Below are positions 1-10,783 of a stretch of 12,032 nt of DNA, in pieces; positions within the stretch are counted from its first letter, which is position 1, and each line of letters starts with the position of its first letter. A program made the translations under genes and the position numbers. This stretch comes from Bacillota bacterium (lineage in GTDB: Bacteria > Bacillota > Clostridia > Oscillospirales > Ruminococcaceae), in NCBI GenBank assembly GCA_023395695.1, contig JAEWYJ010000145.1, forward strand, positions 1 to 12,032, given 5' to 3'. The notes under the pieces were generated by a model. The model was not told where the DNA came from. It was given only the letters and a program-made list of their open reading frames with translations, and searched no databases.

Positions 1-1077
1 ATTCAGATACGCGGCGGTGGGCCGGTGGCCGCTACGCGGGTTAATATCCCTTATGTTTTAGCCATATTGCTTATTTACCTGTTTATTCTTTACGCCACCT
101 TTGGCGGCTATCACACCGTTACCAAAACCGACGCTTTTAACCTTATTGCGCTGTCGGTGGGGTTAATTATGGTTTTTTTGGTTGTGGTGCCGCGGGCGGG
201 CGGTATTGTGGCCATCCATCAAAAGGCCGCCCAAATCAGCGGATGGGCCTATCCTGCCATGCCCTATGCCACCGACAGGGGCGATCTGCTGCGGTTGTTC
301 GGCAAGGGCAAGTTTGCGCCGCTAATGAGCGGAACCATGTTTTTTGGCTGGGGGCTGGGGCTTGCCGCTAATCCGCAGTATATTATCCGCATGATCTCGG
401 CCAAGGATCAGAAAACCTCTAAAAGAACGGTTCAATGCTCGATGGTTTATCTGGCTCTGCTGTATTTTGCGCTGCTGTTCATTGGTCTGGGTATGCGGGT
501 CATGTTCCCGGCCATCGACGAGGTGACCGAGACCGACGGTATTTTTGTGCATGTAATTAACAATTTGCTTTACGGGCCGTGGAGCGGGTTTTTCCTGTTC
601 AGCATTATTGGGGCCTGCATTTCCACCGCCAATTCCGAGCTGCTGCTGATTGCATCTGCCTTCAGCTATGACATTGTCGGTACGCTGCGCAAAAAACCGC
701 TCGGCGAGTCGGCGTTGCTCTCGCTTTCCCGTCTGAGTATTTTTGTGGGCGGAACCGTTTCGCTGCTGCTGTCCATCCATCCCCCCGCCAGCCTTTTGAC
801 CTATGGCGGCGATTTGTGGGGCGTTTTTGGCGTGACCCTATTTCCGACGCTTTACGGCGCGTTGCTTTACCGGCACACAACGCGGCAGGGGGTATGGGCC
901 GGCCTTTGCGCGGGCCTTTTGTGTCTGGCGCTGTTTTACCCGCCGTATTTTGCCGGAGAATTGGAGCTGCACCCGGCCTTTCCGGGTACGGTGGCGGCAA
1001 CGGTCTGCTTTTTGGCCGTTTCCCGCCTGACCTGTGGACACAGCCACCGGCCCGGTATGCAGGAGGATATGAAATGA
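1..1077 (+). CDS. Sodium:solute symporter family transporter, 5'-truncated by the window edge
   Basis: This is the C-terminal part of an integral membrane secondary transporter of the SSS (PutP/PanF) family, which couples Na+ entry to uptake of a small organic solute. The frame is open from base 1, so the start lies upstream; about 358 codons are visible and roughly 140 residues are probably missing. The segment FGGYHTVTKTDAFNLI matches the family's 'GG..aV..TD..Q' region. LAANPQYIIRMISAKDQKTS resembles the conserved cytoplasmic loop. ISTANSELLLIASAFSYDI (from about 619) matches the helix carrying the Na+-site Ser/Thr residues. Several hydrophobic helices follow, then a short polar tail. The stop overlaps the next gene's start (ATGA at 1074-1077), so the symporter is co-translated with a response regulator. 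The substrate cannot be read from sequence. The GTG at 25 lies inside the conserved fold and is not credible as a start. Confidence 0.88.
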   Translation: MQIRGGGPVAATRVNIPYVLAILLIYLFILYATFGGYHTVTKTDAFNLIALSVGLIMVFLVVVPRAGGIVAIHQKAAQISGWAYPAMPYATDRGDLLRLFGKGKFAPLMSGTMFFGWGLGLAANPQYIIRMISAKDQKTSKRTVQCSMVYLALLYFALLFIGLGMRVMFPAIDEVTETDGIFVHVINNLLYGPWSGFFLFSIIGACISTANSELLLIASAFSYDIVGTLRKKPLGESALLSLSRLSIFVGGTVSLLLSIHPPASLLTYGGDLWGVFGVTLFPTLYGALLYRHTTRQGVWAGLCAGLLCLALFYPPYFAGELELHPAFPGTVAATVCFLAVSRLTCGHSHRPGMQEDMK

Positions 1078-2447
1078 CCTATAAAATTTTGATTATTGAC
1101 GACGAATATCTGATACGCCTGTCGCTGCGCGAGGGCTTGAGCGATCTTGGACATCAGGTGGAAACAGCCGACAGCATTGAAAACGGGCTGTTGCTTGTCG
1201 AGCGGTTTGCGCCGCATTTTGTATTGCTGGATAACCGCTTGGGCGAGCAGCGGGGCATGGACTATATTGAGGCGATTAAAAAGCTCGACGACGATATACA
1301 AATTGTGCTGATGACCGCTTACGGCTCAGTCTCGCAGGCGGTGGAGGCGGTTAAGCGCGGGGCTTACGACTATATTTTAAAGCCCTTTGATCTGGACGCC
1401 CTTGACCTGATGATTGGCCGCTGCATGGACCAGCTTAAAACCAAGCGCAACCTTGGCCTGATTTCTACTCCCAAATATGCCTTGGTTGGCGACAGCGCCG
1501 CCATACAGAATATTCGCCGGCAGATTGGCGTGGTGGCACACAGCGACGTCGATGTGCTTATACGCGGTGAAACGGGCACCGGCAAAGAAGTGGTAGCCAA
1601 TCTCATTCATCACAACAGCGCGCGCCGGCAGCTTGCCATGGTAAAGATTAACTGTGGGGCCATACCCGAAAATCTGCTGGAAAGCGAGCTGTTCGGCTAC
1701 GAGCGCGGCGCTTTCACGGGTGCGGCCAAGACCAAGCGGGGACTTTTGGAGCTGGCCAATGGCGGCACAGTTTTTTTGGATGAGATCGGCGAGCTGCCCC
1801 TTGCAATGCAGTCAAAGCTTTTAACCTTTTTGGAGGATCGGCGCTTTAAGCGCGTCGGCGGGCTCAACGATATTGAGGTGAACGTGCGGGTTATTGCCGC
1901 CACCAACCGCGACCTGGGTCAGGCCATCGGGCGCAAGGAGTTCCGTGAGGATTTGTTTTACCGTTTAAACGTCATGCAGATTGCTATTCCCCCGCTGCGG
2001 GAACGCCCGGAGGATATTATTCCGCTGTGCAACTTTTTTCTGGCGCATTTCAACCGTAAATTCGGTAAGGATATTTCGGGCATTGACCCGCACTTTGCCG
2101 AGGAGCTGACCGAGTATTCGTGGAAGGGCAATGTGCGCGAGCTGCGCAATGTGCTTGAGCGGTGCACACTGTTTTGCGAGGGCAGCCTGCTGGGCAGGTC
2201 GGCCTTTTTGGAGGCGCCCTTCCCCCCGTCAAAGGTGCCGCAGGCCGCATCGGTTCAAAGCAATGCGGCAGGCGCACCGGATTTTGGCGAGGAGGGCATC
2301 AGCCTGCCGCAGCTTTTAGAGCGCATTGAGCGCGACTGCATTGACAGGGCGCTTAAAATCAGTGGTAATAATTATTCCAGGGCTGCGGCGCTTTTGGGCA
2401 TTACGCGGTTCACCCTGCGCCGAAAATTGGAGCAGCAGGGTGAATAG
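1074..2447 (+). CDS. NtrC-family sigma-54-dependent response regulator
   Basis: A 457-residue cytoplasmic activator with the full three-domain layout. The receiver covers about 1-120, with acidic pocket D9/D10, phospho-acceptor D53, T81 and K103. The AAA+ sigma-54 interaction domain covers about 136-370, with Walker A GETGTGK (165-171), the sigma-54 contact loop GAFTGA (212-217) and Walker B FLDEI (234-238). A Fis-type helix-turn-helix lies at about 428-457 (NNYSRAAALLGITRFTLRRK). The ATG at 1074 is chosen because AGGAGG lies at 1061-1066 and the receiver begins at once; an upstream in-frame extension would only read symporter sequence in another frame. All residues needed for phosphorylation, ATP hydrolysis and sigma-54 contact are present, so it should work. 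No histidine kinase is visible; it may lie left of the window. Its likely target is the pxp operon, whose -24/-12 promoter and upstream repeats follow directly. This target assignment is inferred from position. Confidence 0.95.
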   Translation: MTYKILIIDDEYLIRLSLREGLSDLGHQVETADSIENGLLLVERFAPHFVLLDNRLGEQRGMDYIEAIKKLDDDIQIVLMTAYGSVSQAVEAVKRGAYDYILKPFDLDALDLMIGRCMDQLKTKRNLGLISTPKYALVGDSAAIQNIRRQIGVVAHSDVDVLIRGETGTGKEVVANLIHHNSARRQLAMVKINCGAIPENLLESELFGYERGAFTGAAKTKRGLLELANGGTVFLDEIGELPLAMQSKLLTFLEDRRFKRVGGLNDIEVNVRVIAATNRDLGQAIGRKEFREDLFYRLNVMQIAIPPLRERPEDIIPLCNFFLAHFNRKFGKDISGIDPHFAEELTEYSWKGNVRELRNVLERCTLFCEGSLLGRSAFLEAPFPPSKVPQAASVQSNAAGAPDFGEEGISLPQLLERIERDCIDRALKISGNNYSRAAALLGITRFTLRRKLEQQGE

Positions 2448-2523
2448 ATGCAGCGGCGCAGCTGCTTAAACTTTAATACCGGAAGGTTTTTTCAACGGGT
2501 TATAATCGGCTTGACTCTATTAT

Positions 2524-2557
2524 AAAACCGCCGCGGCAAGGTTGCCGCGGCGGTTTT
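2524..2557 (+). terminator. Rho-independent terminator after the response regulator gene
   Basis: A perfect 16-bp inverted repeat, arms 2524-2539 and 2542-2557, separated by only GG. The core is CCGCCGCGGCAA and its complement, flanked by AAAA on the left and TTTT on the right. It lies 77 bases after the regulator stop and before the sigma-54 promoter region, so it isolates the pxp operon from upstream read-through. The symmetry means it could work in both directions. Confidence 0.9.
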
Positions 2558-2640
2558 GTCGTTACTGAAAAACGGCGTTCCATGCCCGCATTCTCATCCT
2601 GAACCGGCTCAAAAATTTTGGGCAATCTATTCGCCGTTTT

Positions 2641-2698
2641 ATTGCGTATTGGCACAGGCTGTGCGATTTTGCACGCCGGTCATGTGCGCAGACGCACA
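2641..2698 (+). promoter_or_regulatory. Three 16-bp inverted repeats, candidate enhancer sites for the sigma-54 activator
   Basis: Three boxes of the form TGTGCG-N4-CGCACA are visible. Box 3 (2683-2698) is a perfect 6-4-6 palindrome. Box 2 (2660-2675) is TGTGCG-N4-TGCACG, with four core pairs. Box 1 (2641-2656) is ATTGCG-N4-GGCACA, weaker. Their centres are 19 and 23 bp apart, close to two helical turns. They lie about 140-180 bp upstream of the predicted transcription start, the distance usual for NtrC-type upstream activating sequences. Binding by the regulator encoded at 1074-2447 is inferred from position and symmetry. A further overlapping palindrome, GCACA-GGC-TGTGC, lies at 2652-2664, and an extra CGCACA half-site at 2701-2706. 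Confidence 0.65.
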
Positions 2699-2803
2699 GA
2701 CGCACAGGCGGAAAAATGCAGCTTGTACAAACTTTATCCGGACGTATTGTGGAAGATGTGCTGAGAAATCCCCATAAAATAGCGAAAAACGTCGCCTTAC
2801 AAG

Positions 2804-2820
2804 TTGGCACCATAATTGCT
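2804..2820 (+). promoter_or_regulatory. Sigma-54 (-24/-12) promoter of the pxp operon
   Basis: TTGGCAC (2804-2810) and TTGCT (2816-2820) match the sigma-54 consensus TGGCAC-N5-TTGCW. The invariant GG (2806-2807) and GC (2818-2819) are exactly 12 bases apart. The expected transcription start is near 2831, giving a leader of about 30 bases with AAGGAGG (2847-2853) before the pxpA ATG. A sigma-54 activator gene immediately upstream strongly supports the call. Confidence 0.88.
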
Positions 2821-2860
2821 TAATATATAGGCGACACTACAATCAGAAGGAGGAAGTTTT

Positions 2861-3625
2861 ATGTATAAGGTAGACCTGAACAGCGATCTTGGCGAAAGCT
2901 TTGGCGCTTACACCATCGGCATGGATGCCGAAATTCTTAAATATGTCTCCTCGGCCAACGTGGCCTGCGGCTGGCATGCAGGCGATGCTGTCGTGATGGA
3001 AAAGACGGTTGCCGATGCCGCTGCCGCCGGCGCTGCCGTGGGCGCGCACCCCGGGTTCCCGGATCTGATGGGCTTTGGCCGGCGCAACATGGTGGTTACC
3101 CCCGCCGAAGCAAAAGCCTATGTCAAATATCAGCTCGGTGCGCTTATGGCGTTTACAAAGGCCAGGGGCATTCCCATGCAGCATGTTAAAGCCCACGGTG
3201 CGCTTTATAATATGGCCGCGGTGGACGAAGCGCTGGCCGAGGCCATCTGTCAGGGCGTTTACGAGGTGGACTCCGGGATTATTCTGCTCGGGCTTGCCAA
3301 CAGCAAAATGATCTCAGCTGCCGAAAAGATTGGGCTGCGCGCGGCTTCTGAGGTGTTTGCCGACCGCGCTTATAACGACGACGGCACGCTTGTTTCAAGA
3401 AAGCTGCCCGGCTCGGTCATCCACGACAAGGAGCTTGCCATTGCCAGAACGGTGCAGATGGTAACGCAAGGCACCGTTGAGACGGCGTCGGGCAAGGTCA
3501 TCGGTATTAAGGCCGATTCCATCTGTGTGCATGGCGATAACCCCAGCGCGCTGGAGTTTGTTAAAAACATTCGCGAAACACTTGAGAAAAACGGCGTGAC
3601 CATCTGCAATTTAACGCAGCTTTAA
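2861..3625 (+). CDS. pxpA: 5-oxoprolinase subunit PxpA (LamB/YcsF family)
   Basis: A 254-residue cytoplasmic protein of the LamB/YcsF family, one of three subunits of the prokaryotic ATP-dependent 5-oxoprolinase, which converts 5-oxo-L-proline to L-glutamate. Family hallmarks are clear: NSDLGESFG (7-15), [11 protein letters not shown] (32-42), [15 protein letters not shown] (61-75), VKAHGALYN (109-117), EVFADRAY (164-171) and CVHGDNP (222-228). The polar and His residues in these blocks are the probable active-site residues. Length matches the family's usual 250-255. The ATG at 2861 has AAGGAGG at 2847-2853 and the conserved N-terminus begins at residue 2. It is the first gene after the sigma-54 promoter. 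pxpB and pxpC lie downstream in the same operon, so a complete enzyme is encoded. The family is well recognised and the neighbours agree. Confidence 0.96.
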
Positions 3626-3802: not shown

Positions 3803-5056
3803 ATGAGCAACAAAGAGAAACTGAGCGCATCTTTTGACGCTAAGCCTGAGAAAAAGAGTGCAGCCGTCCTGATAGGGGCCGCCTTCTTAATGGCAACCTC
3901 CGCGATCGGCCCCGGATTTTTGACCCAGACTACCATGTTTACCTCTCAGTATATGGCATCGTTTGCCACCGTCATTCTGTGCACCATTCTGTTGGATATT
4001 ACCACACAGGTCAACGTCTGGCGTATTATCGGCGTTTCCGGTATGCGCGGGCAGGATGTCGCCAACAAGGTGCTGCCGGGCCTGGGCTACTTTGTCGCGT
4101 TTCTTGTGGCGCTGGGCGGGCTTGCCTTTAACATCGGCAATGTCGGCGGTGTTTCGCTGGGCCTTAACGCCATGCTTGGCATTCCCAGCAAGGCGGGCTA
4201 CATTATTGGCGGTCTGCTGGCCGTTGGTATTTTTCTCTCCAAGGATGCCAAAAAGGGCATGGATACCATAACAAAGGTGCTGGGCGCCATCATTCTTGTC
4301 GCTATTCTGTACGTGGCCATCAGCTCCAGACCGCCTGTCGGACAGGTGGCGGTCAAGGTGTTTGCGCCTGACGATCCTATAGCGCTGTTCTTCCCAATGA
4401 TTACGCTGCTTGGCGGTTCCTGCGGCGGTTACATTACCTTTTCGGGCGCGCACAGACTGCTTGACGCCGGTATATCCGGCAAGGAGAACCTCGGTCAGAT
4501 TCAGCGCTCTGTTCTGACCGGCATTGCGGTTTCGGGCACGGTGCGTGTGCTGCTGTTCTTGGCCGTGTTCGGCGTCTGCGCCGCGGGCGGCGCCAACGCT
4601 ATCGGTGCGATTGCGGCGGCCACCAACCCTGCGGCTGAAGCGTTCCGTCTGGCGGCCGGCGAAATTGGCTACCGTCTGTTCGGTGTTGCACTGTTTGCGG
4701 CGGGTGTTACCTCGGTGATCGGCGCAGCGTTTACTTCGGTTTCGTTCCTCAAGACACTGCACCCCTTTATCGAAAAAAATGAGAAATGGTTCATTGTCGG
4801 CTTCATCACCGTGTCTACGCTGATTATGACTATTCTTGGCGGCGCCAAGACATTGCTTGTGGCGGCCGGTTCGCTCAACGGCTTGATTCTGCCGATTACG
4901 CTTGGCACCATGCTGCTGGCCTCGCGCAACAAGGCGATTGTCGGCGAGGACTACAGGCACCCGACTTTCTTGATTGTCGCAGGCGTGCTGGTGGTGCTGC
5001 TGACCGGCTATGTCGGTATTCAGGCGGTGCCCAAGCTTCTGAACATCTTTGCCTAA
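3803..5056 (+). CDS. NRAMP-fold transporter, YcsG-like, without the metal-binding motifs
   Basis: A 417-residue membrane protein with about 11 hydrophobic helices, of the NRAMP-related group that includes B. subtilis YcsG. Like YcsG, it is encoded with the 5-oxoprolinase genes. True NRAMP metal carriers have DPGN in helix 1 and an MPH motif in helix 6. Here the helix 1 region reads AIGPGFL (34-40), with no Asp or Asn, and the helix 6 region around 196-215 (FFPMITLLGGSCGGYITF) has no Met-Pro-His. Divalent metal transport is therefore doubtful. The operon suggests uptake of 5-oxoproline or a related compound, which is an inference. The ATG at 3803 has AGGAGG at 3786-3791, 11 bases away, which is rather long. 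The first 18 residues are polar and precede helix 1. An upstream in-frame TTG at 3731 has no Shine-Dalgarno sequence and would add a non-conserved leader. Confidence 0.85.
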   Translation: MSNKEKLSASFDAKPEKKSAAVLIGAAFLMATSAIGPGFLTQTTMFTSQYMASFATVILCTILLDITTQVNVWRIIGVSGMRGQDVANKVLPGLGYFVAFLVALGGLAFNIGNVGGVSLGLNAMLGIPSKAGYIIGGLLAVGIFLSKDAKKGMDTITKVLGAIILVAILYVAISSRPPVGQVAVKVFAPDDPIALFFPMITLLGGSCGGYITFSGAHRLLDAGISGKENLGQIQRSVLTGIAVSGTVRVLLFLAVFGVCAAGGANAIGAIAAATNPAAEAFRLAAGEIGYRLFGVALFAAGVTSVIGAAFTSVSFLKTLHPFIEKNEKWFIVGFITVSTLIMTILGGAKTLLVAAGSLNGLILPITLGTMLLASRNKAIVGEDYRHPTFLIVAGVLVVLLTGYVGIQAVPKLLNIFA

Positions 5057-5135: not shown

Positions 5136-5864
5136 ATGCAGGATGTTCGTTTTTTAATGACCGGCGACACCTCGGTTCTGGTGGAGTTCGGCAACGAAAT
5201 CAGCACCGAAATCAACGCGCGCATACGCGCTTTTAATATTGCGTTGGAGACAAAGAGCGTGTCCGGCATTGTGGAAACCGTGCCCACCTACCGTTCGCTG
5301 ACCGTGCATTACCGGCCTGAGATTATCCGCTACGAAAAGCTGCGCGATACGCTTGCGGGGCTGCTGAGCGGCTTGGATGACGTGGCAATTCCCCCGGCCT
5401 CAGTCGTGGAAATTCCGACGCTTTACGGCGGCGAGATGGGGCCGGATATTGGTTTTGTCGCCGAGCACAACCACAAAACGGTCGAAGAGGTTATCCGTAT
5501 CCACAGCGAGCCGGAATATTTAATCTACATGCTGGGGTTTACGCCCGGCTTTCCGTACATGGGCGGTATGAGCGCCGAAATTGCCACGCCGCGTCTGACC
5601 AGTCCCCGCGTTAAAATTCCGGGTGGCTCGGTGGGTATTGCGGGCAGTCAGACCGGCGTTTACCCGATTGACTCGCCCGGCGGCTGGCAGCTTATCGGCA
5701 AAACGCCCCTGAAGCTCTACGACGCGCAGCGCGAGACGCCGATACTGTTGCAGGCGGGGCAGTACGTCAAGTACCGTCCAATTGATCAGGCCGAGTTCGA
5801 CGACATTGCCGCGCGGGTTGCCGCCGGCAGCTATACCGTCAAAACATACAGCAGGGAGGGTTAA
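5136..5864 (+). CDS. pxpB: 5-oxoprolinase subunit PxpB (KipI/allophanate hydrolase subunit 1 family)
   Basis: A 242-residue cytoplasmic protein of the KipI/AHS1 family, which works with PxpC and PxpA in 5-oxoprolinase. The C-terminal half carries the family signature nearly intact: YMLGFTPGFPYMGG (131-144), then PRLTSPRVKIPGGSVGIAG (152-170), QTGVYPIDSPGGWQLIGKTP (172-191). The N-terminal part (about 1-85) is the smaller domain, with DTSVLVEFG at 11-19. Length is typical. The ATG at 5136 has AAGGAGG at 5119-5125 with 10 bases between. The gene ends 2 bases before pxpC, which points to coupled translation. The B. subtilis relative was first studied as KipI, an inhibitor of sporulation kinase KinA. 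In this context, with pxpA beside it, the enzyme role is the better annotation. Confidence 0.95.
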   Translation: MQDVRFLMTGDTSVLVEFGNEISTEINARIRAFNIALETKSVSGIVETVPTYRSLTVHYRPEIIRYEKLRDTLAGLLSGLDDVAIPPASVVEIPTLYGGEMGPDIGFVAEHNHKTVEEVIRIHSEPEYLIYMLGFTPGFPYMGGMSAEIATPRLTSPRVKIPGGSVGIAGSQTGVYPIDSPGGWQLIGKTPLKLYDAQRETPILLQAGQYVKYRPIDQAEFDDIAARVAAGSYTVKTYSREG

Positions 5865-5866
5865 CT

Positions 5867-6892
5867 ATGGGCATGACGATTAGCAGCGGTGGCTTTTTAA
5901 CCACCGTGCAGGATGCGGGACGCACCGGCTACCAGCAGTTCGGCGTGCCTGTTTCAGGCGTTATGGACCCACGCTCCTTTGCACTGGCCAACCTCCTTGT
6001 CGGCAACGACAAGGACGAGGCGGTGCTGGAGTTAACCATGATGGGCCCCGCCGCCAGCTTTGACGAAGCCAACATTATTGCGGTGACGGGCGGCAATTTA
6101 TCGCCCGCTTTAAACGGCTCGCCAATGCCGATGTACCGCGCTGTTTTGGTTAAGCCGGGCGACAGACTGACGTTTGGCATGCAGGTTTCGGGCTGCCGGG
6201 CCTATCTGGCAGTGGCGGGCGGCTTTGACATAGCGCCGGTCATGGGCAGCCGTTCAACCTATCTTAAAGCGCAAATTGGCGGTGTCGAAGGCCGAAAGCT
6301 CGGCAAGGACGACCGCCTGGCCTTCCGTTTGCCTAAGACCGAGCTGCCGAATCTGACGCAGGGGCGCTGCGTTCCGCCGGAGGATTTTACCGCGGCCCAT
6401 AAGACGCTGCGGGTGGTCATGGGCCCCCAGGACGACGCCTTTACCGCGAAGGGTCTTAAAACCTTTTTGAGCTCAACCTATTCGGTGACCAACCAATTTG
6501 ACCGCATGGGCTGCCGCTTAGAGGGAGAGATTATTGAGCATCTCAAGGGTGGCGATATTATTTCGGACGGCATTTCAATGGGTGCTGTGCAGGTGCCCAG
6601 CGCAGGCCAGCCGATTATTATGCTGGCCGACCGCCAGACCACCGGTGGCTATACGAAGATTGCCAATGTGATTACGGCGGATTTCCCGCTTATTGCCCAG
6701 TGCAAATTTGGCGATACCATCCGCTTTAAGGCGGTGACGGTTACCGAGGCGCAGGACATTTACCTCTCCAATCTGCGGCGGCTTGACGCAATACGTACCG
6801 ACCTTGATTTGCCGCGGGAGGCGCCTGGCCCATGGGAATTTACCGTCAATGTTAACGGAACCGACTACCGCTGCCGCGTGGCGCAGCGCTGA
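5867..6892 (+). CDS. pxpC: 5-oxoprolinase subunit PxpC (KipA/allophanate hydrolase subunit 2 family)
   Basis: A 341-residue cytoplasmic protein of the KipA/AHS2 family, often labelled 'biotin-dependent carboxyltransferase family'. The N-terminus has the family block GGFLTTVQDAGRTGYQQFGV (8-27), followed by PVSGVMDPRSFALAN. The C-terminal half has FDRMGCRLEG and the strongly conserved SDGISMGAVQVPSAGQPI, then MLADRQTTGGYTKIANV. No biotin-carrier domain is present, which suits a 5-oxoprolinase subunit rather than a carboxylase. The ATG at 5867 is preferred over the one at 5873 because GGGAGG (5854-5859) is correctly spaced from it. The gene starts 2 bases after the pxpB stop and ends 23 bases before the ycsI-type gene, so the three are tightly linked. 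Confidence 0.95.
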   Translation: MGMTISSGGFLTTVQDAGRTGYQQFGVPVSGVMDPRSFALANLLVGNDKDEAVLELTMMGPAASFDEANIIAVTGGNLSPALNGSPMPMYRAVLVKPGDRLTFGMQVSGCRAYLAVAGGFDIAPVMGSRSTYLKAQIGGVEGRKLGKDDRLAFRLPKTELPNLTQGRCVPPEDFTAAHKTLRVVMGPQDDAFTAKGLKTFLSSTYSVTNQFDRMGCRLEGEIIEHLKGGDIISDGISMGAVQVPSAGQPIIMLADRQTTGGYTKIANVITADFPLIAQCKFGDTIRFKAVTVTEAQDIYLSNLRRLDAIRTDLDLPREAPGPWEFTVNVNGTDYRCRVAQR

Positions 6893-6915: not shown

Positions 6916-7740
6916 ATGGCACGCTATGACATTACGCCCTATATCAGCATGAGTCCCGCTGAGGTGCGCCAGCGCATACGACAAGGGGAGATTACGTTCC
7001 CGACCGCTGGTATGTGCGCGGGTTTTGCGCAGGCAAACCTTATCATTCTGCCCGCGGATTATGCGGCGGATTTTAAGGAATACGCCGCCAGAAATCCCTT
7101 CCCCTGCCCGGTGCTTGAAATTGTTGAGGGCACACCGCAGACGCATCTCATGGGTGAGGACGGCAACATAGTCACCGATATCCCGGAATATTTTATTTAC
7201 AAAAACGGCGTCTTTTCAGAGCGGGTCAGCGACGCCTCCGCCTTTTGGCAGGACGGCTTTGTCGGCTTTTTAATCGGATGCAGCTTCTCGTTTGAAGAGG
7301 CGCTGATTAAGGCCGGCATTGAGGTGCGGCACATCGCCACCGGCCGTAACGTGCCGATGTACAAGACCAATATACAGACCGTCAAGGCCGGCCCGTTTGA
7401 GGGGCCGATGGTGTGCAGCATGCGCCCCATGACGCCTGAAAATGCCAAACTGGCCTATGAGATTACCCGGCAGTATCCCAATGTGCACGGTGCGCCGGTG
7501 CATATGGGCGACCCGGCCGAGGTAGGCGTTACAGATATTATGAAGCCGGATTACGGCGAGTCGGTGGAGATCCGGGAGGGCGAGATATCGGTGTTCTGGC
7601 CCTGCGGCGTTACCCCGCAGGCGGCAATTGAGGCGGCAAAGCCCCCAATTGTCATTACCCATTCGCCGGGGCATATGTTTATCACCGATATTAAAAATGC
7701 CGAGCTCAACGACTTTTTAGAGGCGCAGAAGCATAAGTAA
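6916..7740 (+). CDS. YcsI/DUF1445 family protein, putative hydro-lyase
   Basis: A 274-residue soluble protein of the YcsI/DUF1445 (UPF0317) family, slightly longer than the usual 255-270. Family blocks are plain: GMCAGFAQANLIILP (32-46), IPEYFIYKNGVF, GFLIGCSFSFEEALIKAGIE (about 117-136), RHIATGRNVPMYKTNI and ITHSPGHMFITDI near the end. AAGGGAG at 6903-6909 fits the ATG at 6916. In databases the family carries the weak name 'putative hydro-lyase'. Its homology to the N-terminal region of mammalian mitochondrial D-glutamate cyclase, which forms 5-oxo-D-proline, suggests a role in feeding or racemising substrate for the 5-oxoprolinase encoded just upstream. That role is inferred, because the mammalian protein has a second domain that is absent here. 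It is the last gene of the operon and is followed by a strong terminator. Confidence 0.9.
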   Translation: MARYDITPYISMSPAEVRQRIRQGEITFPTAGMCAGFAQANLIILPADYAADFKEYAARNPFPCPVLEIVEGTPQTHLMGEDGNIVTDIPEYFIYKNGVFSERVSDASAFWQDGFVGFLIGCSFSFEEALIKAGIEVRHIATGRNVPMYKTNIQTVKAGPFEGPMVCSMRPMTPENAKLAYEITRQYPNVHGAPVHMGDPAEVGVTDIMKPDYGESVEIREGEISVFWPCGVTPQAAIEAAKPPIVITHSPGHMFITDIKNAELNDFLEAQKHK

Positions 7741-7980: not shown

Positions 7981-8844
7981 TTATTTTTCGTAATATTCAA
8001 TCAGACCCTGTGTGCCGTTGTCGCCCTTGCCTTCATCCTCAAGCGATTTATACATTCGCAGAACCTGCCCCAGAATATCCAGCGACAGTCCGGTGGCCTC
8101 GGCCTCCTGCTGTGCGAGGGTCATATCCTTGATGAAATGCTTGATATAAAAGCCGGGGGCAAAATCTCCGGATACCATTTTGGGCGCGACCTTTTGCAGC
8201 TGCGCGCTGGCTGCGGAGCCGCAGCCAATGGCTTTAAGCGCCGCATCAAGGTCGAGCCCTGCGGCGCGGGCGTAGGCCACCGCTTCGCACACGCCGGACA
8301 CGGTTCCCGCAATGACAATTTGATTGGCCATTTTGACATGCTGACCGCTTCCGGCAGGCCCCTCGTAAAAAATATTGGTGCCCATGGCCTCAAATATCGG
8401 CCTGCAGGCCTCAAACGCGGGTTTATCTCCGCCGACCATAATAGACAGGGTGCCTGCTCTGGCTCCGCCATCACCGCCCGAAACAGGCGCGTCGAGTGCA
8501 AAAAGGCCGCGGGTTCGGGCCGCTTCGTAAATGCGCTTGGAAAGCCGGGGGCTGGTCGTGGTCATGTCAATAAGATATGCGCCCGGCTTTGCGCTTGCAA
8601 GGATGCCCGCCTCGCTAAAGTAAACCTCTTCCACATCCTTGGGGTAGCCGACTATCGTGATAACCGCGTCGCGCCCAGCAGCACATTCGGCCACACTGTT
8701 GCACCAGATCAGCCCCTCGTCAATCAGGGCCTGTGCTTTTGACTTGGTGCGGCTGTAGATGAACACGTTAAAGCCATGCTTGCTCAAATTGCGTGCCATC
8801 GATTCTCCCATGACGCCTGTACCGATAAATCCAATGTTTTTCAT
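7981..8844 (-). CDS. Beta-hydroxyacid dehydrogenase (3-hydroxyisobutyrate dehydrogenase / tartronate semialdehyde reductase family)
   Basis: A 287-residue cytoplasmic NAD(P)-dependent oxidoreductase. The N-terminal Rossmann fold begins at once with GFIGTGVMG (5-13). The substrate-binding block is DAPVSGGDGGARAGTL (118-133), and the catalytic lysine is K171 in GSGQHVKMANQ (165-175). The helical C-terminal half has FIKDMTLAQQEA. These features define the family that interconverts beta-hydroxy acids and semialdehydes, for example tartronate semialdehyde to D-glycerate. The exact substrate cannot be decided from sequence. The start is set at 8844, because AGGAGG (complement of 8853-8858) lies 8 bases upstream and the Rossmann motif follows directly. 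A start at 8868 would add eight unlikely residues that overlap the ribosome binding site. It lies 39 bases after a MarR gene on the same strand and is probably the last gene of that operon. Confidence 0.88.
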   Translation of the reverse strand: MKNIGFIGTGVMGESMARNLSKHGFNVFIYSRTKSKAQALIDEGLIWCNSVAECAAGRDAVITIVGYPKDVEEVYFSEAGILASAKPGAYLIDMTTTSPRLSKRIYEAARTRGLFALDAPVSGGDGGARAGTLSIMVGGDKPAFEACRPIFEAMGTNIFYEGPAGSGQHVKMANQIVIAGTVSGVCEAVAYARAAGLDLDAALKAIGCGSAASAQLQKVAPKMVSGDFAPGFYIKHFIKDMTLAQQEAEATGLSLDILGQVLRMYKSLEDEGKGDNGTQGLIEYYEK

Positions 8845-8883
8845 GCTTGTTTCCTCCTGTAATGTCAAGTTAAGAGACGGGCA

Positions 8884-9318
8884 TTATTCCGAGAATTCCT
8901 TTTCGATATTATCCTTCATGCGAATAATAAGAGACAATGCCTGCGCGCGCTCCTCGGCAGAAAAACCTTCGAACAAAAGCTCGTGCAGCCGGTCGACAAT
9001 TGCAAAAAGCGTTTCCTCCCGCGCGAGAGCGGCAGAGGTCGGGAAAACATGATTGACGCGGCGGTCATGCTCGTCGGGTGTGCGATAGGCCAGCCCGCAT
9101 TCCTCAAGCTGTGCAACGCTGCGCGCCGTTGTTCCCTTGTCCATGCCCAACGCGCAGGAAAGCTGCTCCTGCGTGACGCCTGGACAGCGGCAAAGATGCA
9201 GCAAAAACGGCAGCTGTCCCGCATCAAGCTGAGAGCTTTGCAGCTCGCGGGCAAAATAGCGTCGGGTATACCGGTAGATCATCGAAATAAATTTATTGGC
9301 GGGTACTGTTCGGCTCAT
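8884..9318 (-). CDS. MarR family transcriptional regulator
   Basis: A 144-residue DNA-binding protein of typical MarR length. N-terminal dimerisation helices (1-30) precede a winged helix-turn-helix: VTQEQLSCALGMDKGTTARSVAQLEECGL (48-76), then a wing with the family-diagnostic DRR (85-87). C-terminal helices (about 98-144) complete the dimer interface. The ATG at 9318 overlaps the stop of the upstream MATE gene (ATGA on the minus strand, complement of 9315-9318), and GGAGGG (complement of 9325-9330) precedes it, so the two are translationally coupled. MarR proteins encoded with efflux pumps usually repress their own operon and release DNA on binding a small aromatic ligand or on oxidation. 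Here a likely operator overlaps the promoter upstream of the MATE gene. The ligand is unknown. Confidence 0.92.
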   Translation of the reverse strand: MSRTVPANKFISMIYRYTRRYFARELQSSQLDAGQLPFLLHLCRCPGVTQEQLSCALGMDKGTTARSVAQLEECGLAYRTPDEHDRRVNHVFPTSAALAREETLFAIVDRLHELLFEGFSAEERAQALSLIIRMKDNIEKEFSE

Positions 9319-10715
9319 GCTTTTCCCTCCGTTTTCATCTGGTCGGCAAGCTTATGGTTTAAGTCGCGCAAAAACCCGCGGCTTAAATAGACGGCCAGGG
9401 CAAAGCAGAGAACGTCGGACACGGGCTGCACCAGCTGCACGCCCAAAAGGCCGAACAGCGCAGGTAAAAGCAGCGTGCCCGGCAAAAAGAAGATGCCCTG
9501 CCGTGCGCTGGCCAGCAGCATGGCGGGCTTGCTTTGCCCCGTACATTGCAGATACATGTTGCACATAATAAAAAAACTTTGCAGCGGCAGCGCAAGACAT
9601 TGCAGACGCAACGCCGTGGTGCCGATTGCGATAACCTCAAGGTCGTCCCGCCGGAAGGCGGCAATAGCCTGAGGCGCCAGCAGAAACATAAGCGTGCCCG
9701 CGCTTACCAGCAGCAGGAGCGAAACCTTGACGCAGAACCAGAAGGACTCCTTGACGCGGTCAAACCGCTTTGCGCCATAATTAAAGCCGCATACCGGCTG
9801 AAAGCCCTGCCCGAAGCCGATCATAGCCGAAATGACAAACATCATCAGGCGGGTTACGATGCTGATGGCCGCAATGGCCGGATCTCCGAACGGCTTACAG
9901 CAGCGGATCATAAATACCATTGCAACACTGGCCAGACCCTGACGGAACAGCGACGGCGCGCCGCCGACAACAATTTCGGCCAACAGCTTAAACGACAGCC
10001 GCAGGTTATTCATTTTAAGCGGCAGCGTGCCCTGCCGGCCAAGGTTAAAATATAACAAAATTAAAAAGCTGACAAACTGGCTGATGATGGTCGCCAGCGC
10101 CGCGCCGCTGATACCCATGCCCATTCCAAAAATCATCAGCGGGTCTAAAAACATGTTGAGTATGCCGCCCGACATTATGCCGATCATGCCGTAAAAGGCG
10201 CTGCCCTGCCCGCGCAGCGAGGTGTTGAGCACAAAGTTTGCCGCCATATAGGGCGCGCCGATCAGAATATAGCGCGCATAGTCGCGGGCATAAGGTGCGA
10301 TGCTCTCGGTGGCGCCCAAAAGCAGGACAAGCTCATCAAGGAAACAAAGCCCCGCGACCGCCAGCAGCGCGCCGAAAACCAGCGACATGACAAAGGCCGT
10401 CGCAACCGACTCGGAGGCCTCCTGCCGGCGCTTTTCCCCAAGCAGGCGTGAAACCTGCACCGATGAGCCGATGCCAAAGGTAAAACCCACAGCTTGAATA
10501 ACGCTCATCAGCGAGAAAATGACCCCGACTGCGGCAGAAGCGCTTGTACCGATTTGGCTGACAAAATAGGTATCGGCCATATTGTAGATAGCCGAGATAA
10601 GCATGGCGGTAATGGTGGGCAGCGCGAGACGCCCTATCAGCCGCGGGATGGGCGTTTGGGTCATGACGAGGTATTTTTGGTCCTGTTGTGCCTGAAATGA
10701 TGCTTCAATATCCAT
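9315..10715 (-). CDS. MATE family multidrug/metabolite efflux transporter
   Basis: A 466-residue membrane protein with about 12 hydrophobic helices in two halves, the normal MATE size. It probably exports drugs, dyes or metabolites in exchange for Na+ or H+. The first helix region is typical of clostridial MATE proteins: IPRLIGRLALPTITAMLI (23-40), then AIYNMADTYFVSQIG (42-56). In the second half, GFGQGFQPVCGFNYGAKR is the matching family motif. The ATG at 10715 (MDIEASF) is preferred. Its nearest Shine-Dalgarno sequence, AAAGGA, is about 13 bases away and weak, so the ATG at 10664 (MTQTPIPRL) remains possible. A TTG at 10772 is rejected because it lies upstream of the predicted transcription start. 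It heads the MATE-marR-dehydrogenase operon. Confidence 0.9.
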   Translation of the reverse strand: MDIEASFQAQQDQKYLVMTQTPIPRLIGRLALPTITAMLISAIYNMADTYFVSQIGTSASAAVGVIFSLMSVIQAVGFTFGIGSSVQVSRLLGEKRRQEASESVATAFVMSLVFGALLAVAGLCFLDELVLLLGATESIAPYARDYARYILIGAPYMAANFVLNTSLRGQGSAFYGMIGIMSGGILNMFLDPLMIFGMGMGISGAALATIISQFVSFLILLYFNLGRQGTLPLKMNNLRLSFKLLAEIVVGGAPSLFRQGLASVAMVFMIRCCKPFGDPAIAAISIVTRLMMFVISAMIGFGQGFQPVCGFNYGAKRFDRVKESFWFCVKVSLLLLVSAGTLMFLLAPQAIAAFRRDDLEVIAIGTTALRLQCLALPLQSFFIMCNMYLQCTGQSKPAMLLASARQGIFFLPGTLLLPALFGLLGVQLVQPVSDVLCFALAVYLSRGFLRDLNHKLADQMKTEGKA

Positions 10716-10754
10716 AAAAAACAACGAGTCCTTTCGTAAGGGGGTGTCCTTAAA

Positions 10755-10783
10755 AGCATAGCACCCAAACAAAACGTTGTCAA
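10755..10783 (-). promoter_or_regulatory. Sigma-70-type promoter of the MATE-marR operon
   Basis: Read on the minus strand, TTGACA (complement of 10778-10783) is a perfect -35 box. A 17-base spacer follows, then TATGCT (complement of 10755-10760) as the -10. Transcription should start near 10748, giving a leader of about 33 bases before the ATG at 10715. Confidence 0.78.

Follow-up and report, generated by a model that had tools for sequence, protein, structure and literature searches.

A predicted two-component, sigma-54-dependent circuit for 5-oxoproline use, conserved in part of the Clostridia

How is the use of 5-oxoproline controlled in clostridia? The question is raised by a stretch of 12,032 nucleotides (the window) from a Ruminococcaceae genome (assembly GCA_023395695.1, contig JAEWYJ010000145.1, forward strand), in which the gene of an NtrC-type regulator stands ahead of pxpA and the other genes of a 5-oxoprolinase operon. 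We regard it as highly probable that the locus encodes a sigma-54-dependent two-component switch for 5-oxoproline use; the window would then hold one copy of a conserved circuit, and the recurrence of its DNA signals in related bacteria points to real control. The regulator gene, the promoter element, the inverted repeats (dyads) and the conservation of all of these together are plain observations on the DNA. The features on which the argument depends are the following:

1..1077, + strand: sodium:solute symporter (SSF/SLC5 family); PF00474 at 82.6 bits, cut-off 22.8
1074..2447, + strand: NtrC-type response regulator of 457 aa, with receiver, sigma-54 AAA+ domain with GAFTGA, and Fis-type helix-turn-helix (HTH)
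2524..2557, + strand: intrinsic terminator of the regulator transcript; 16-nt perfect arms, minimum free energy -28.7 kcal/mol
2641..2656, + strand: weak third dyad, doubtful; 3/12 mismatches
2660..2675, + strand: predicted enhancer dyad 1, TGTGCG-N4-TGCACG; 2/12 mismatches
2683..2698, + strand: predicted enhancer dyad 2, TGTGCG-N4-CGCACA; exact, 0/12 mismatches
2805..2820, + strand: predicted sigma-54 promoter, -24/-12 element TGGCAC-N5-TTGCT; exact match
2861..3625, + strand: pxpA, 5-oxoprolinase subunit A; NF003814 at 383.6 bits, cut-off 226

The first-pass annotation had described a complete NtrC-type regulator gene, and the open reading frame (ORF) is indeed complete, with Response_reg (PF00072), Sigma54_activat (PF00158), AAA lid and Fis-type HTH (PF02954) domains all above the Pfam cut-offs, in the order receiver, AAA+ sigma-54 interaction domain, Fis-type HTH. 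Its motifs are intact, including Walker A (GETGTGKE) at residue 165, GAFTGA at 212 and Walker B (VFLDEI) at 233, together with FREDLFYRL, GNVREL, the IDDE pocket, LLD and KPF, all of which presumably carry their customary functional meanings. The protein is, as predicted from these domains, an intact NtrC-type sigma-54 activator of the response-regulator class, and it appears to be one half of a two-component system that is encoded together with a sodium:solute symporter. The terminator that had been claimed before pxpA likewise holds, with arms at 2524-2539 and 2542-2557 that are 100% complementary and a TTTT that closes the second arm.

Ahead of pxpA, the promoter sequence TGGCACCATAATTGCT at 2805-2820 carries GG at 2806-2807 and GC at 2818-2819, 12 bases apart. 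Such an exact -24/-12 match is expected 0.024 times per whole window (500 shuffles), which bears out the promoter first proposed there; when the 420 bp ahead of pxpA were shuffled 2000 times, the slightly wider pattern TGGCA[CT]-N5-TTGC[AT] arose in 3 cases. When up to two mismatches were allowed, the window gave 6 matches to the promoter pattern against a chance mean of 8.92; only the exact site is informative, since the relaxed matches are at chance level. The pxpA transcript would be expected to start near 2831, since sigma-54 transcripts begin 11-12 bases past the GC. Across five loci of 15-20 kb, searched on both strands, the pattern occurs once per locus, upstream of pxpA only. With no -24/-12 site before the symporter-kinase-regulator (sensor) operon in any of the five, sigma-54 control of that operon itself was rejected.

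Three inverted repeats had been proposed upstream of this promoter, of which two are strong 16-bp dyads, whereas the third is weak. The dyads 2683-2698, 2660-2675 and 2641-2656 begin 178, 201 and 220 bp before the ATG, or 122, 145 and 164 bp before TGGCAC, and the first two thus provide, by prediction, the tandem sites ahead of a -24/-12 promoter that are the criterion for NtrC-type control. An equally good dyad was found in 0 of 300 shuffles. The exact dyad occurs once each in the genomes G001, G003 and G005, always before pxpA, and is almost unique to the pxpA promoter in the genomes searched. The relaxed form TGTGCR-N4-YGCACA, which does not cover the pxpA-upstream dyads of G525 and G549, was counted 18 times across 16 genomes, whose rounded sizes add up to 46.9 Mb; 14 of these occurrences, each in a different genome, precede pxpA, and the pattern reversed, as a control, gave 6. 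Since each genome has the dyad at little more than one promoter, a switch specific to the pathway suits these data better than a global one.

In the circuit that we propose, a membrane histidine kinase, presumably encoded directly ahead of the symporter by analogy with G003, would phosphorylate the regulator (1074-2447), and the active regulator would bind the tandem dyads at 2660-2698 and loop to the RNA polymerase-sigma-54 complex held at 2805-2820. Hydrolysis of ATP by the regulator would then open the promoter of pxpA, an NRAMP-type transporter gene, pxpB, pxpC and a D-glutamate cyclase family gene, whose expression would thereby depend on rpoN. The signal would most simply be 5-oxoproline or a related compound, sensed via the symporter, the kinase or both.

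The same arrangement recurs in other genomes. A genome scan gave one close relative (71% identity; the runner-up had 45%), at locus L001 of Ruminococcaceae bacterium D5, a named carrier genome placed in Oscillospiraceae. Sampling through the regulator covered 198 relatives of D5, 394 genomes from the same order as G003, and 248 relatives of G437. The regulator was present in 3 of the first set, counting D5 (E <= 1e-100), in 3 of the second, counting G003 (E <= 1e-120), and in 13 of the third, counting G437 and G432 (E <= 1e-130). The neighbourhoods of all distinct loci so found, 16 besides the window, were read. All 16 hold the symporter, kinase, regulator, pxpA and NRAMP genes in a single run; pxpB and pxpC are visible in 15, the contig of G511 ending before them, and the cyclase gene in 14, with no match in the short remainder of the G549 contig. 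The order is kinase-symporter-regulator in G003 and symporter-kinase-regulator in the 15 others. In the window the symporter directly precedes the regulator, so a kinase gene would be expected ahead of base 1, on the model of G003, unless the locus lacks one.

In all, 18 further loci carry a regulator homologue (45-87% identical) before pxpA, with the same arrangement at identity levels of 71-87%, about 60-63% and 45-47%, and all 18 have the kinase gene. Joint conservation of the regulator and the -24/-12 motif had been set in advance as a check, and the site stands in every one of the 18; with the window, TGGCA[CT]-N5-TTGC is found in 19/19 loci, and TGGCA[CT]-N5-TTGC[AT] in 17/17 (the window and the 16 regulator-found loci). 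In an alignment anchored on the promoter (15 non-redundant loci, including G683 and G696, the near-duplicates G541, G522, G005 and G529 being dropped), TGGCA and TTGC each hold about 1.9 bits per position against a flank mean of 0.18, from which the two bases before TGG (1.1 and 1.3 bits) were excluded. In 15 of the 17 loci the promoter stands 55-58 bp ahead of the ATG; for G001 and G005 the distance is 98-99 bp. A dyad of no more than 2/12 mismatches is present in all 17, the best one 119-188 bp ahead of the promoter, and in 17 of the 18 other loci, 118-188 bp before the site; in 13 of the 17, the window included, a second dyad (at most 3 mismatches) lies 22-24 bp from the best one. Outside G525 and G549, the best dyad of these loci was matched by 0 of 300 shuffles.

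Some loci have additional, unrelated genes without Pfam matches between the regulator and pxpA: a secreted-looking protein of 356 aa in G003 (L086) and a lipoprotein-like protein in D5 (L001 5077-5823), with a similar one suggested in G005. The promoter and dyads still stand directly before pxpA in these loci.

Sampling through pxpA is a less biased test than sampling through the regulator. Among 198 relatives of G003, pxpA was found in 13 genomes, at 15 loci, of which 3 have the regulator and the site; one of the 12 others begins at a contig end, and the site is in 0 of the 11 usable regulator-less loci. A survey of the class (391 genomes) found pxpA in 36, and 30 of 38 loci were examined: the regulator lies just upstream in G437, G683 and G696, and the -24/-12 site occurs in exactly these three. 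Combined, the site is present in 6/6 pxpA-sampled loci with the regulator versus 0/38 without it (Fisher p = 1.4e-7), one looser match, TGG-N9-TGC in L118, being left uncounted. Chance occurrence or general recurrence of the promoter motif was rejected on the basis of the shuffles and these regulator-less loci. The first-pass reading of a sigma-54 circuit that controls a 5-oxoprolinase operon thus gains support from both ways of sampling. The regulators of G683 and G696 are 47% and 45% identical to that of the window, and both loci read symporter-kinase-regulator-pxpA-NRAMP-pxpB-pxpC, followed by the cyclase gene in G696, with none seen in G683. Their promoters end in TTGCG, and both have GAGCG-type arms by eye; in G683 a 2-mismatch dyad lies 118 bp ahead of the site. 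The link to pxp is not general to NtrC-type regulators, since the regulators of L002-L080 (37-47% identical) have no pxp gene match within the DNA of their loci, several of which span only 4-7 kb.

The distribution of rpoN was also followed: it is present in 15 of the 16 module genomes tested (G683 and G696 were outside this test), and in 2 of 10 pxpA genomes that have no module (G004 and G017). Short matches to the sigma-54 DNA-binding family, below the cut-off, appear in other ORFs of L082 and, weakly, of G004 and G005. In G004, with a pxpA of 76% identity, no regulator matches at E <= 1e-100, and there is neither a site nor an NRAMP match near pxpA. Beside this pxpA (L114) lies a membrane-protein ORF of 358 aa, which by eye resembles the 357-aa ORF that precedes the sensor module in G005 (L087), a resemblance that would fit gain or loss of the module at a single position. 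D5 has a second cluster, pxpC-pxpB-pxpA (L124, G001:C28), whose PxpA is 44% identical to that of the window, and no sigma-54 site is found in the 450 bp before its pxpA.

Several points weigh against a sigma-54 switch of this kind. The dyad consensus was derived from the same loci, so that its presence upstream of pxpA is partly given by construction and the independent result is its rarity elsewhere. In 14 of the 38 regulator-less loci pxpA is not the first gene, and these are weak negatives for that reason; by the neighbour lists, pxpA comes first in 5/11 of the regulator-less loci from G003 relatives and in 19/27 of those from the class survey, the operon start being unscanned in the rest, and the strict count for loci with pxpA first is 6/6 versus 0/24 (p about 1.7e-6, calculated by hand). 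Conservation is also uneven: the dyad of G696 has diverged past 2 mismatches; for G525 and G549, whose best dyads carry 2 mismatches, 1.7% of 300 shuffles do as well; and the match to the regulator in G549 is partial and contains a stop. The module genome G512 gave no rpoN match, possibly through incompleteness. The extracytoplasmic domain of the kinase has 2 invariant and 6 nearly invariant columns (11 sequences), and with so few conserved residues it is disfavoured as a fixed 5-oxoproline pocket. Finally, the putative circuit is known here from sequence alone, and a kinase gene and rpoN in the window's own genome would lie outside the window.

Other explanations accept most of these observations and assign them differently. 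If a sigma-70 promoter, or read-through from the regulator operon, were the main driver and the sigma-54 site a minor one, the strong terminator ahead of the promoter and the strict conservation of the -24/-12 bases while the flanks drift would be hard to account for; no sigma-70-like site is listed in 2448-2860 either, although this comes from a crude consensus scan and is a weak negative, and we think this explanation improbable. The dyads might instead be terminator stems or the operators of another protein, with the regulator acting elsewhere. In 11 of the 19 loci, among them L131, L154, L153 and eight more, the best dyad indeed sits at the centre of a longer hairpin that resembles a terminator and follows the regulator gene, in the region between the regulator and pxpA (pairing continues for 8 or more base pairs beyond the dyad, with two mismatches allowed), as against 244 of 5887 control positions (4.1%; these positions overlap and are not independent). 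The hairpin runs directly into a T tract in some loci (e.g. G432, G517 and G542), the longest nearby T run being only 3 in G507, G522, G541 and G511, and, by inspection of the sequences, an arm of the hairpin in the hairpin-bearing group takes in part of the second dyad as well. In the window and G003, however, the dyads are tandem and stand apart from any such hairpin, and in the window's group of four loci the extension is only 0 or 4, which makes the motif more than a terminator stem. The constant spacing of the second dyad and the stable distance from best dyad to promoter in the 17 loci speak against it as well, as does the fit to the TGT/ACA class, in which the spacer is 10-12 bp and to which the main text of a survey of clostridial regulons assigns 15 activator groups (PMC6615313). 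We therefore give this explanation hardly any credence; rather, in one group the enhancer and terminator uses of the dyad seem to have merged.

The nature of the signal is less constrained. The circuit could be real and yet respond to something else, such as carbon or nitrogen status, D-glutamate or a peptide, with the pxp genes as mere output. CbrA/CbrB of Pseudomonas, in which CbrB is NtrC-type and CbrA carries a STAC domain, would be the precedent. As there, an SLC5-type transporter, a sensor kinase and a partner regulator occur together at the present loci, and the symporter belongs to the family of the CbrA transporter domain, according to the text of PMC7096432. Unlike CbrA, the symporter and kinase are separate genes in the loci examined, with no SLC5-kinase fusion, and no STAC domain match is found in the symporter or kinase of L001 and L086. 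The kinases of these two loci have HAMP, HisKA and HATPase domains, and two membrane helices that flank an outer stretch of about 105 residues. Pygmaiobacter massiliensis has a kinase of 49% identity. The predicted fold of the N-terminal 338 residues (mean pLDDT 81.8, pTM 0.49) had a WalK model as its top match (TM-score 0.65, normalised by query length, with a poor rmsd of 8.9), followed mostly by PAS/LOV domains; a PAS-like fold is thus predicted in the cytoplasmic part, with no clue to a ligand. The PAS region is better conserved than the outer domain, and we lean for this reason towards sensing in the symporter or in the PAS domain. These kinase properties, and the presence of a D-glutamate cyclase family gene within the operon, would suit a different signal, whereas the near-confinement of the dyad to one promoter argues for specificity to the pathway: CbrA/CbrB serves a wide response in carbon/nitrogen balance (PMC7096432, in the text consulted), and the output here looks like one catabolic operon. 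We consider a different signal possible, if rather unlikely. A more speculative extension of the 5-oxoproline switch, which we put forward tentatively and think unlikely in its full form, is that the enhancer doubles as the terminator of its own symporter-kinase-regulator operon and that the symporter, encoded separately, senses 5-oxoproline and gates the kinase, as a split-gene counterpart of CbrA. If so, one palindrome would both end the sensor transcript and start the catabolic transcript.

Downstream of the regulator, the genes run on the same strand from pxpA to the cyclase family gene, and the remaining features of the window are as follows:

2712..2731, + strand: block AAAAATGCAGCTTGTACAAA, of which all but the first base is also found in G003 (alignment)
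2848..2853, + strand: ribosome-binding site AGGAGG for pxpA, read off the sequence
3803..5056, + strand: NRAMP-type transporter; PF01566 at 72.1 bits, cut-off 29.8
5136..5864, + strand: pxpB, 5-oxoprolinase subunit B; TIGR00370 at 226 bits, cut-off 145.55
5867..6892, + strand: pxpC, 5-oxoprolinase subunit C; TIGR00724 at 309.5 bits, cut-off 230.2
6916..7740, + strand: D-glutamate cyclase family protein (NCBIfam: putative hydro-lyase); PF07286 at 225.4 bits, NF003969 at 385.6 bits, cut-off 324

The family cut-offs for PxpA and PxpB are both exceeded, and hydrolysis of 5-oxoproline is the predicted activity; PxpC passes its domain model and scores 244.5 bits on the equivalog NF045499, under the cut-off of 500. 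The NRAMP-type transporter is taken as a homologue of YcsG/PxpT and, by analogy with PxpT, probably serves in 5-oxoproline uptake. The symporter lacks its N-terminus, since the window begins inside the gene; its stop overlaps the start of the regulator (ATGA), and its best NCBIfam match is PutP, below the cut-off.

In B. subtilis, the cluster ycsF-ycsG-ycsI-kipI-kipA-kipR comprises homologues of pxpA, an NRAMP-like gene, a D-glutamate cyclase-like gene, pxpB and pxpC, and KipR is an IclR-type regulator; we know of no sigma-54 site for this cluster. The window has the same kinds of genes and a different type of regulator; no GntR- or IclR-type gene is present among the 10 window proteins scanned. 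A cluster of related content (pxpA, an NRAMP-family gene, pxpB and pxpC), pxpAGBC of Clostridioides difficile, has reportedly been described by Lee et al. in 2025, as told in papers that cite it. Oxoprolinase is not mentioned in the main text of a study that mapped sigma-54 promoters across the C. difficile genome (PMC7438776, by term search). In Corynebacterium glutamicum, PxpR is a GntR-type repressor that binds 5-oxoproline, and PxpT, an NRAMP-family protein encoded with pxpABC, is required for growth on 5-oxoproline, as stated in the text of PMC13274462. Its authors, writing in 2026, considered the regulation of bacterial 5-oxoproline metabolism to have been unstudied before, to their knowledge, and PxpR is the only studied pxp regulator that we found, as described in that text (PMC13274462). 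There, as here, a pxp operon with an NRAMP-family 5-oxoproline transporter is the target, and repression is replaced in the window by predicted activation via a two-component system and sigma-54 (PMC13274462, same text). The locus would thus be a second and opposite answer to the regulation of pxp genes: activation by way of a kinase and sigma-54, in an arrangement that some of the Clostridia share.

For the sigma-54 regulons of Clostridiales, the main text of Nie et al. (2019; PMC6615313) lists 39 activator groups, and 44 activators (about 10%) carry receiver domains. The present circuit resembles those regulons, as the main text portrays them, in that the activator adjoins its target operon, the target lies in amino-acid catabolism, and a TGT/ACA-type site stands mostly 100-250 bp before the sigma-54 promoter; it departs from most of them in that the activator appears to be a response regulator that shares its locus with kinase and symporter genes (PMC6615313). 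Table 1 of that survey, which includes 8 groups of unknown function, contains no 5-oxoprolinase target (PMC6615313; the supplementary tables are outside this statement). The first-pass remark that no sigma-54 control of pxp genes had been described still stands for the open-licence literature searched, supplementary tables apart. As a regulon the circuit is new, and its components are of ordinary kinds; the one unusual detail is found in relatives, where an enhancer and a terminator seem to share one DNA element. The clostridial sigma-54 repertoire thereby gains a target, and the question of the ligand becomes directly testable.

Two smaller observations concern the window itself. The block AAAAATGCAGCTTGTACAAA at 2712-2731, between the dyads and the promoter, contains the palindrome TTGTACAA. 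Past the operon, on the opposite strand (7981-10772), lie a 2-hydroxy-3-oxopropionate reductase-like gene, a MarR-type regulator gene and a MATE efflux gene.

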